64,000 nucleotides of DNA, taken from positions 1,301 to 65,300 of the forward strand of contig JADHYX010000088.1 of the NCBI GenBank assembly GCA_027604685.1. Reading direction: 5' to 3'. Source of the DNA: Lobulomyces angularis (lineage: Eukaryota > Chytridiomycota > Chytridiomycetes > Lobulomycetales > Lobulomycetaceae). The position numbers and the translations under genes are program-made. The notes under the pieces were generated by a model. The model was given only the letters and a program-made list of their open reading frames with translations, ran no database searches and had not been told where the DNA came from. Of this stretch, positions 12,990 through 16,674 are shown piece after piece (position 1 is the stretch's first letter; every line of letters begins with the position of its first letter).

Positions 12990-14112
12990 ATGCAGATTTT
13001 TCAAAAACTTAGAGAAGAAGAACTTTCAATAAAAGAAGAAACCTTAGCAAAAAATGTAGATGTTTGTTCCATTTTAAACCTCATAAAGGAATTGGAACAA
13101 ATTGGTTATCAAAACATATTTGAATTAGAAAAAGACCTTAATTCTTTTAAGTTGAGTTACAAGGCAAATTTTTTAAAAGTAGAACCATTCAATTTTTTAA
13201 TCTCTCATAATCTTCCTTTAAAAAATAAAACTTTTGTTTATATGCAAAATAATCTTTTTAACGTCTTTATGGACTTTAAAAAAGTATACAGAAAAATGAC
13301 ATTTTGTAACAATAGAATGTTTTTTTTTTTTTTTTATTTCTAGTTGGTGGATAATTTGGAACCATTTTGGGAAACTTTTAAAAATTTTGAAAGAGAAACC
13401 TGGGTTTTAGGTTTCTCAATTTTTTAAATTTAATTTTTTTGAAGTTAACTTTAATTTTTTTTTTTTTTTTGTTAGAACCTGAGGAACCTATACCAAAAGA
13501 TATCACATTTAGAAGAATTGCATTTGGTAAGAATAAAAAGGATTAATTATATTAATTAATAAAAAAAAAAAAAAAATTCCCTTTAACATTTAATTTTTTT
13601 TTTTTTCTTTTTTATTCTCAAGCGAAAAATTTGACACTGACAATTGAAATTTTGGATCCGTTTAGACCACTCTGTTTACCAAAATTTAAAATATTTGGGG
13701 ATGAAAAATTGTCAACAGAATATAGAAGTTTGATTCAAGGAAATTTAACAAAATGGTATACTAAAAAAAGAAAAAAAAAGAAGAAGAAATGAAAAATTCA
13801 AAATTATTTTTATCCAGGAATGAACTTAAGCCTTTAAAAGAAAATATAGAATATTTGATATCGGAAAAATTACCAAAGAAACCAAATTTAAGCAGCGAAA
13901 AAGAAGTGCATAAATTTAGTTGCGGAATTTGTTATTTATTTAAATTTGAAGATAAAACACCGGAGATTAATTGCGAAAATTGTTTTAAAAGTTATCATAG
14001 TTGTTGTTTAGAAGAGTGGTTAAGAGGTTTAAATACAACTAGGTTTGTTTTTAGAACTTTAATTGGTGAATGTATTTTTTGTCATAACTCTTTATCTGTA
14101 TGCTTGGATTAA
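12990..14112 (+). CDS. FANCL: FANCL, Fanconi anaemia E3 ubiquitin ligase
   Basis: Catalytic subunit of the Fanconi core complex, which monoubiquitinates FANCD2-FANCI for interstrand crosslink repair. Exons 12990-13283, 13344-13410, 13476-13526, 13623-13755 and 13818-14112 give 279 residues (human about 375), so the N-terminal ELF part is short or missing. The URD region (residues about 95-200) is recognisable but divergent (FWETFKNFERETWVLEPEEP, LTLTIEILDPFRPLCLP). The C-terminal RING/PHD-like finger is clear: CGICYLF, then INCENC..SYHSCCLEEWLRGL, then GECIFCHN. The phrase EEWLRGL plus GEC..C matches vertebrate YEWLRGL and GECPYC. Zinc ligands C-x2-C, C-x2-C, H-x2-C and C-x2-C are all present. 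Confidence 0.92.
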
Positions 14113-14452: not shown

Positions 14453-14599
14453 TATTTTATTTTTTATTTTTTAATTTTTTTGCCTAGTATTCAAGCATCC
14501 TCTTTCTGAACATCACAAATAATTAAAAATTATCTATAAAAAGTGAAAATAAATTGCAATAAAATTTAATGACTGAACTAAGCATTCAACAAATAAAGT

Positions 14600-15725
14600 A
14601 ATTTTAATAAATTATTTAAAGGAACTGAAACTCAACGTAAAGGTGAAAACCTTAATATTTAAAGTTAATCGATTAACCGTACATACTACCCTTTTTGTTA
14701 AATGGGACATATAATCCTTGACACCAAAATATTAATGGAAAACATTTTGAATTTAAGAAGAACAAAGGAACATACAGTAAAAACAGGTAAAGATGAAGTG
14801 TTGGGTGTTGTTTTTTTTAAACTGACACTAAAGCTTTTAGATCCAGAAATAAATTGAGATTCAATGGAATAATTCGAACTGATGGAGTTTCAATTAGTGT
14901 TGTATTGTCTTCGCCTAAACCTCAAAGAGATGAAAATAATAATGTACCAAGAGTATAAAAAAGGAAAAACTGAAAAAACTGAATACTTTCAAGACAACCT
15001 TGACATTTTAAGTTGCAATAAAGTTTTTATAGATCCAGATAAAAAATTGTCTTGGAATTAACGGAAAAAAGTTAAGGTATCCGCAAATGCAGCGCAGAAA
15101 GGAAAGTGGATTAAAACTTTATGGTATTATTCGGGAGAAAGTTTCAAGTCAAATTGTAGATCAACCCGTTGATGTTGAAAAAACTAAAAAAACCTTAAAT
15201 GGAGAAAAATGGAATTGTTTCATGAAAATTTTTTTATAAAGTTTTACAAGAATGAAAAGTTTATGGACAATCAATTTTTAGAAAATTGAAATTGAGTAGA
15301 TTTATCAATACTCAAAAATGTGAAAGTTAATTTATCAAAAATGTAAAAAAACTTTTGGTAGTGAAGAAAATGATACGATAATCATTGGGGATTGGTCAAA
15401 AACAAGCATGTTACATTAAGATCCAACAAAAGGAAAGGGTTTTTAAAGAAGCATCTTCAAAAGGCAGGTTTTGATGTTTTTTTGTGCAATGAATACTTAA
15501 CATCTTCAATTTGTCCTGATTGCAAAGAAAGATCTTTAAAAACTTTTAAATATAGAATATCAGCGAGACCTTGGGTAAGGAGATTTGAAAAAGTGCAATG
15601 GGTTCGCGCTGCAAAAGTGAAATTTATCAATTACCTTATAAAAAAGAAAGATCATGGAGCAGAGATGATGTGGCAACTTTGAATATAAATCAGTTGTTGA
15701 GGTTATGTAGCGGATGGTTTTAGAC
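14600..15725 (+). pseudogene. Decayed Fanzor/TnpB-like RNA-guided nuclease gene
   Basis: The translation in pieces, across stops and frameshifts, gives the ordered landmarks of a eukaryotic TnpB homologue (Fanzor). From about 14839: AFRSRNKLRFNGIIRTDGVS (strand block before RuvC-I). At 15023-15052: VFIDPDKKLSW, where the family has the RuvC-I sequence IDPG/N.RD. Near 15077-15120: LRYPQMQRRKESGLKLY. At 15378-15400: IIIGDWSKTSM. At 15485-15525: CNEYLTSSICPDCK, the first zinc-ribbon half, followed by ETFKYR-like KTFKYRISARPWVRRFE. At about 15650-15700, in another frame: SWSRDDVATLNINQLL, the RuvC-III aspartate block. The final landmarks need a +1 frame change, and stops break the front half, so no active protein can be made. 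No terminal repeats were found. Confidence 0.72.
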
Positions 15726-16674
15726 CAAAACATATTTGTACGTAAATTAGAATTTTTTTCAATACAGTTTTCACTATGTTAATATTTAAATATATAAATT
15801 GGTGTTTGTGGTATTATTTTTTTGAAAATTGATTTTAAGAATTGATGTTAAGAAAAATAATGCACCCAACGCTAAAATATTCTTCCCAAACAAAGTTTAT
15901 ACTTTTATATAGTTAGGCTTATATATTGCATTAGCAGCAAAATCTATGGGATTTCAACTATATGCAGATATTTATCTTCAGATGTACCCAGTTCAGCAAT
16001 ATTTTTAAGTTGCATGACCTACTTTGATGTTTAAAGAGCACTTGATGAGAAATTAATTTTTTGGTTTTTTGACAAATTTAACGCCATCGAGCTTTATTTA
16101 TGAAATTAATGCGATCTAAGGTTTTTCTAGTAACTAAATTGTTTCAATCGAAAAGTTAACTTTTAAGCTTAATTTTTAATATTGATTCAAACATTATCGG
16201 AAGCATCCAATTTTCTCAAAAATTATTACAAGATTTAGTTCATTCATATTAATGAAAACTGGGAAAACTCATCGTGTTGGTAGAAAAGCATTTTCAATTG
16301 TATAGTTAATGATTGTGAAAGCTTTGCAAATTGTTGATCAACTCAGTGACTTAAGTAGGAATTGCAGTACTTGTTACAATGGTAATTTGCGGTACTTCTT
16401 GGGTAGGTTTTGTTGCCATGATTTTTTCAACAGTTTTTGCTGCTTTTAGCAAATAAAGGCTGTGCCCATTTTAATCAAGCCAACTTTTATACTTTTTTTA
16501 CTTTTTACTTTTTTTTCTAAAACTTAAAACTTCTTCTGTTAATTTTTTCTTCCAAAAAAATTGAATAGTTTCTCTTTTTGATTTTTTTTTAAAAATAAAT
16601 CTACCTAATCTTTTTATCTCCAACTTACTTTTACCTGCAACCATCAACAATTTTATAACCCTTCGTTAAAGCCA
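15726..16674. other. Non-coding stretch: relic flank and ABCG leader
   Basis: About 750 bp after the Fanzor relic is moderately AT-rich and lacks the usual A/T runs. It carries short coding-like pieces broken by stops, which I could not assign; one near 16385-16460 is hydrophobic (WVGFVAMIFSTVFAAFS). It may be the rest of the mobile element or a dead neighbouring gene. The last 180 bp (16490-16674) is pyrimidine-rich on the + strand and is probably the promoter and leader of the ABCG gene. Confidence 0.45.

Follow-up and report, generated by a model that had tools for sequence, protein, structure and literature searches.

Fanzors are RNA-guided enzymes that cut DNA and are related to the CRISPR nucleases. 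The window, as the term is used here, is a 64,000-nucleotide stretch of DNA from the chytrid Lobulomyces angularis (G000:C88:1301-65300 in the 20.76-Mb, 533-contig assembly that was searched; C-numbers below denote contigs and the copies on them). A FANCL-like gene (Fanconi anaemia E3 ligase; FANCL_C, E 1e-15) is found at 12990-14112. Directly downstream, beginning about 375 bp beyond the last open frame of that gene, lies a dead Fanzor1 element that occupies positions 14487-15872 and has a TA on each side (Table 1). An earlier sequence-only reading had placed the relic of a Fanzor/TnpB-type nuclease at 14600..15725, which is too narrow for the element, and had quoted six peptides from it. Checking of their coordinates places all six on the + strand in the order claimed, with changes of frame along the way: FNGIIRTDGVS (14860-14892), the RuvC-I motif, RYPQMQRRKE (15075-15104), IIGDWS (15381-15398), the segment with the first half of the zinc ribbon, and the RuvC-III motif. 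The contig itself ends inside another Fanzor-type left end (G000:C88:65380-65500, with its terminal inverted repeat, or TIR, at 65380 and AT as the outward dinucleotide).

Table 1. Features of the Fanzor1 element, in window coordinates
Feature	Position	Strand	Basis or remark
Left TA flank	14485..14486		CC-TA here; CA-TA in several close copies
Left terminal inverted repeat, decayed	14487..14513	+	Recognised from relatives
Fanzor N-terminus remnant, VNRLTVHTTLFVKW	14664..14705	+	Related N-terminal frames in C40 and C250
Fanzor1 pseudogene, C-terminal half (WED/RuvC/zinc-ribbon)	14706..15750	+	Genome copies; PDB matches
ILNLRRTKE	14744..14770	+	Second R at the SpuFz1 TAM-reading R291 position; placed by eye from relatives
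RuvC-I motif, VFIDPDKK	15023..15046	+	D383 equivalent kept; N385 equivalent changed to D
CNEYLTSSICPDCK	15485..15526	+	E541 equivalent and first half of zinc ribbon kept; frame change after
RuvC-III motif, WSRDDVATLNI	15655..15687	+	D606 equivalent kept
Putative omega-RNA scaffold locus, partly damaged	15758..15874	+	Covariance model, 79.4 bits
Right terminal inverted repeat, decayed	15846..15872	+	Read with relatives
Right TA	15873..15874		Alignment of copies
Flank, would-be guide	15875..15889	+	Inferred by analogy with SpuFz1 (14-15 nt past the scaffold) as described in PMC10432273

Among five pieces of the window scanned with Pfam, the sole Fanzor/TnpB-type match was that of 15374-15679 to PF07282 (E 6.5e-4), its 20.3 bits falling below the cut-off of 26.3 bits for that family. 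The same piece taken alone matches SpuFz1 (E 1.2e-6) and Parasitella Fz1 (7.7e-5) among the PDB proteins, while the piece at 14873-15058 alone gave no PDB match. The decisive identification comes from a relative, C216, whose 332-aa open frame aligns to the Fanzor1 structures: SpuFz1 at E 5.8e-53, Parasitella Fz1 at 2.3e-36 and Guillardia Fz1 at 1.6e-6. By these matches the RuvC/zinc-ribbon half is homologous to Fanzor1 proteins of known structure. An unrelated zinc-ribbon or RuvC gene is ruled out by those of C216. The earlier identification as a Fanzor relic can thus be upheld and made specific, to Fanzor1 of the SpuFz1/SPu-1 type; the profile match stayed under the cut-off in Pfam, and the support comes from the PDB sequence matches to Fanzor1 proteins. 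The residues equivalent to SpuFz1 D383, N385, E541 and D606 (the catalytic list given for SpuFz1 in PMC10432273, placed by allowing for a difference of 394 between the numbering of the chain and that of the protein) are all aligned in C216, and the two aspartates and the glutamate are kept in the window copy. Between the E and RD motifs C216 has the four cysteines of the zinc ribbon; the window copy has lost the frame there along with the last cysteine, which reads Y (RCKSEIY, 15607-15627). Relatives are present in chytrids.

That the gene is dead, as had been claimed, is clear from its alignment to the open frame of C216, in which 977 sites include 6 in-register stops and are interrupted by 11 frameshifting indels. 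About 600 bp are also absent between 14705 and 14706, where C181, C137 and C61 have 591-607 bp extra. Differences among five dead close copies (10 pairs) are as flat over codon positions 1, 2 and 3 as expected of neutral decay, at 0.108, 0.115 and 0.093, while the open frames of C216 and C196b differ at 0.133, 0.090 and 0.332, the pattern of a constrained protein. Taken together, the flat dead pairs and the third-position excess in the open pair imply that Fanzor was selected as a protein during the divergence of the families, and that the window copy decayed afterwards.

The element has sharp ends, common to nine close copies that were aligned and found again in the copies of group B. Complete copies measure about 2.0 kb between these ends (C1, 1988 bp; C18, 1982 bp; C258, 2006 bp) and agree with the SPu-1 type in size (~2.1 kb), single gene and ~30-bp TIRs. 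The two ends of the window copy match each other at 7 of 27 bases without gaps, so its terminal repeat has been read from relatives. Compared with its own genome, the DNA of the relic gave 51 matching stretches, a count that includes the relic itself and in which some copies are represented by more than one piece; apart from the relic, the best copy has 87% identity over ~1 kb. Protein searches of the genome gave 139 matches to the C-terminal half and 116 to the N-terminal half, which were condensed by hand to about 114 Fanzor loci on 100 contigs; this is a rough figure, as the search scores the best candidates alone and an element with its halves on two contigs may have been counted twice. 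With as many as 3 mismatches allowed, the TIR pattern has 139 matches in the genome and its reversed control 0; the analyses of TIR ends below cover 100 of these 139, as listed, and distances to contig edges are available for 98.

Of those 98 listed ends, 56 have a contig edge no more than 1 kb away on the element side, and 2 have one as near on the flank side. Eleven of the 56 lie 73-77 bp from the edge, a distance that resembles the word length of the assembler, and 94-99% identity is shared among the left ends found at several of the contig edges. The clustering on the element side points to young Fanzor copies that probably exist and have gone unassembled. No full-length open copy was found by the C- and N-terminal protein searches with frames read in 16 + 8 loci, in which the best candidates alone were scored and the assembly breaks inside elements. 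The longest verified Fanzor frame, the 332 aa of C216, is without the N-terminal half, and the open partial frames of C25 and C196 run into contig edges; intact copies in this genome are possible. The sequence-only reading had predicted related copies, perhaps intact, and their guide RNAs: many copies and a conserved structured RNA that ends at the right terminal repeat were found, and a full-length open copy was not. In the region C216:15500-25400 a second Fanzor copy, in the opposite orientation, truncates the longest open frame on the N-terminal side.

A conserved structured RNA lies at the 3' end of the element and covers the right TIR and TSD. As to the features that had been suggested for a check, the ends are sharp, TA flanks them, and the RNA locus finishes at the right repeat. 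The sequence that follows the stop codon folds into a stem-loop 1, then a linker, then a stem 2 closing at the right terminal repeat plus TA (z -3.79, equalled by none of 200 shuffles). The SpuFz1 RNA has been described with the same arrangement, in which stem 2 comes last and finishes at the right end of the element (PMC10432273), and the guide RNAs of Fanzor1 in general are described as having a scaffold that takes in the TIR/TSD (PMC10711439). In an alignment of 56 sequences, 11 pairs have changes on both sides, compared with 4.7 in shuffles, and include all 7 of stem-loop 1; 91.2% of pair cells are standard, compared with 44-51% when the pairing is slid. That support leans toward the structure, the alignment having been fitted to the model. 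In a first alignment, of 21 sequences, 2 pairs of the named structure were changed on both sides, which is not above shuffles, and the prediction RNAalifold makes by itself is a weak consensus (-0.38 kcal/mol, with a covariation term of +0.29) with zero pairs changed on both sides. No match at the gathering threshold was found in Rfam for three loci. The window scaffold is the better of two window matches of the covariance model, whose training set includes the window copy; the only other, on the opposite strand at the same place, has 20.3 bits (E 0.28). Two low-scoring RNAs outside the training set accompany divergent Fanzors (C255, E 0.005; C176, 0.059). Short copies that keep the RNA without the full gene occur at C19 (538 bp) and C212; the latter, G000:C212:34880-35028, is a ghost of 149 bp without a gene, in which the left repeat is followed by the guide-RNA scaffold and the right repeat. 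The right flank of this ghost, beginning GGAAATTC, is found again at C114:42629.

The terminal repeat of the Fanzor elements is shared with Tc1/mariner-type transposase elements in the same genome. A 2.5-kb element at C280:11219-13731 has at both ends the same 27 bp as the C216 Fanzor has at its right end, and the cargo of this element is a broken transposase with an HTH and a DDE_3 domain in two pieces; a 1.45-kb transposase element in C70 has TIRs of the same type on both sides, with 3 substitutions at one end. Firm ends on both sides were found in these two alone of the nine transposase loci examined. As for the other seven, there is one recognisable end each in C276 and C96, weak ones in C189, C109 and C288 and none in C31, and the repeat at the C137 locus belongs to a neighbour. 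The genome has several transposase subfamilies, every copy examined is broken, and Fanzor and transposase were never seen together in one complete Lobulomyces element. At C109:54900-57282 a truncated Fanzor C-terminus abuts a truncated transposase, the pair being bounded by the right end of a Fanzor and by a weak repeat; this is possibly a recombinant element. A second element of the same TIR family, with unrelated cargo, lies at C280:301-1342. Another with the same TIR and unrelated cargo, 0.85 kb long, lies at C115:54920-55890 within a dispersed repeat that has about a dozen uninterrupted relatives. When the flanks of this element are brought together with a single TA, they match the repeats at C390, C114 and C59 across the junction with no gap, which demonstrates TA duplication for this terminal repeat. 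The Fanzor element copies likewise have TA at both ends; among the 16 joined flanks that were searched, uninterrupted sites turned up for the non-Fanzor C115 element and for none of the Fanzor-bearing copies. A Tc1/mariner transposase with the same repeats is a plausible driver of the Fanzor elements in trans. An association of Fanzor1 with mariner is known in kind from the other Fanzor1 elements that Bao and Jurka describe in Mariner (PMC3627910).

In the left flanks the dinucleotide before the TA tends to be specific to the subfamily, CA in some and AT in others, and in the right flanks it does not. It has been read outward after the TA, so that TG corresponds on the element strand to CA-TA and AT to AT-TA, and ends found solely by the CATA pattern are left out of the count. 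The 51 right ends among the 100 listed are diffuse (TG 2, AT 5). Left ends clustered by their inner sequence have TG 5 and TA 4 in cluster 1, TG in 5/5 of cluster 2 and in C18, AT 3, TT 2 and TA 1 in cluster 3, AT in 6/6, 4/5 and 3/3 of clusters 4, 5 and 8, and TA 1 and GT 1 in cluster 7. Pooled among the listed ends, TG is found at 11/15 left ends versus 2/51 right ends (Fisher p 9e-8) and AT at 16/20 versus 5/51 (p 2e-8); the clusters were made from inner sequence only, and the pooling into CA and AT groups followed once the flanks had been seen. Left ends outside both groups are those of C19 (AT), C64 (TA) and C32 (GT). In the close family of the window element, defined by DNA similarity, four of eight readable left flanks are CATA, two have CA with an altered TA (C40 and C96), and two do not fit, C137 and the window copy with its CCTA. 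CATA is the reported TAM of SpuFz1, and CA upstream of the left repeat is described as conserved in Spizellomyces (both PMC10432273).

The residues at the positions with which SpuFz1 reads its TAM have also been compared. At Q129-Q130, QQ is found by alignment in C40 and C250 and by eye in C38, C129 and C157, which have CA-TA left flanks, and NQ in C481, which has an AT-TA flank. R291 is matched by R in C40 and C1; C107, a second C185 copy and Clydaea P0011, whose left flanks could not be read, have S or G there. C64 has D and S at the reader positions (by eye) with a TATA flank; C1 keeps R291, yet its flank is TATA. Left-end clusters have been linked to Fanzor genes through neighbouring N-terminal matches, and residue and flank are linked directly, in the same copy, for C38, C40, C129 and C157 on the CA side and for C481 alone on the AT side. 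With so few direct links, the variation of TAM-reader residues along with left-flank type is suggestive. Different Fanzor1 proteins are reported to read different TAMs with non-conserved residues (PMC11423790).

It is very probable that the window holds the remains of an SPu-1/SpuFz1-type element of ~2 kb, which lost ~600 bp and decayed. Its identity, ends, RNA structure and decay, and the repeat it shares with a transposase, are observed; movement in trans, use of the guide and retention are inferred. Such an element would have been a non-autonomous transposon with one Fanzor1 gene followed by an omega-RNA ending at the right repeat and TA, for which the adjoining chromosome would have served as guide. 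A Tc1/mariner (DDE_3) transposase with the same repeats probably moved it in trans, duplicating TA. At the empty site left by excision the Fanzor would have recognised its TAM, CATA in this lineage, together with the guide and then cut, favouring repair templated by a copy in which the element was still present; the window copy would afterwards have suffered its deletion and decayed without constraint. The mutual unlikeness of the two ends of the window copy (7/27), its CCTA left flank, the broken state of every transposase copy examined and the failure of the 16 joined flanks to reveal an empty site for a Fanzor-bearing element count against this explanation. That the relic instead derives from a bacterial TnpB or a contaminant would accord with the weak PF07282 match, but the specific match to fungal and algal Fanzor1 structures, the relatives in chytrids, the many genomic copies and the chytrid-type flanking gene FANCL make this exceedingly improbable. 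It is also quite unlikely that, with its protein dead, the locus still makes a usable ghost guide for Fanzor produced elsewhere in the genome: the scaffold does still reach 79.4 bits, and ghost guides are reported to have functioned with SpuFz1 in Spizellomyces (PMC10432273), but the scaffold has several broken pairs and an altered right terminal repeat, the copy has CCTA on its left, and the score is that of a copy in the training set of the model.

Within the explanation by trans mobilisation and TAM-dependent retention, the insertion-site pattern may be a footprint of Fanzor function. Elements would persist where the left flank is the TAM of their own Fanzor, since only at such places could the nuclease, led by the omega-RNA, find the empty site that Tc1/mariner excision leaves, with repair then restoring the element, and subfamilies would have switched from CATA to ATTA with matching changes of residue. 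We propose this tentatively. The left dinucleotide may conceivably be unrelated to Fanzor, arising from a target preference of the transposase or as subfamily bases carried by the element, which is a doubtful reading as well. There are several transposase subfamilies, the CA/AT contrast is essentially one between two lineages, and none of the 16 joined flanks yielded an empty site for a Fanzor-bearing copy. Against it, the constraint is confined to the left, the same-TIR element with other cargo in C115 sits at a plain duplicated TA, the seven listed ends of elements with transposase or other cargo (four in C280, one in C70, two in C115; a small number) have neither TG nor AT, and CA-TA is the TAM reported for SpuFz1. 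The relic itself joins a known kind of element, and the insertion-site footprint is the more interesting part. With many copies, a candidate driver with the same repeats and subfamilies of differing left flank in one genome, mobilisation in trans and TAM-dependent survival become testable, and the CA/AT contrast, combined with the differences in TAM readers, could lead the way to Fanzors that recognise new target motifs.

No publication on both Fanzor and Lobulomyces was found in the literature collection searched. Like SPu-1/SpuFz1 of Spizellomyces punctatus, as described in PMC3627910 and PMC10432273, the Lobulomyces elements are ~2 kb long, with one Fanzor1 gene and ~30-bp TIRs, have TA on both sides and tend, in some subfamilies, to have CA before the left TA, possess an omega-RNA with stem-loop 1, linker and stem 2 at the right end, and occur also as ghost copies. 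Unlike SPu-1, all readable Lobulomyces copies are broken or truncated, and the genome has at least two left-flank types, CA-TA and AT-TA. Lobulomyces also has a transposase with the same TIR, whereas Saito et al. (PMC10432273) report none flanked by Spu-1 repeats in Spizellomyces. The mariner-associated Fanzor1 elements PGv-1, PUl-1 and PUl-4, likened here by their description in PMC3627910 rather than by sequence, similarly have Fanzor1 within mariner-type TIRs with TA duplication, some of them being without a transposase of their own; unlike that group, no complete Lobulomyces element was seen to hold both genes. Clydaea vesicula, also in the Lobulomycetaceae, has a Fanzor-like protein that is 41% identical (HK099_005892) and a Tc1-like transposase (HK099_006063) with 86% identity over 95% of a three-piece query, annotated as one protein of 345 aa where the Lobulomyces transposase copies examined are broken.
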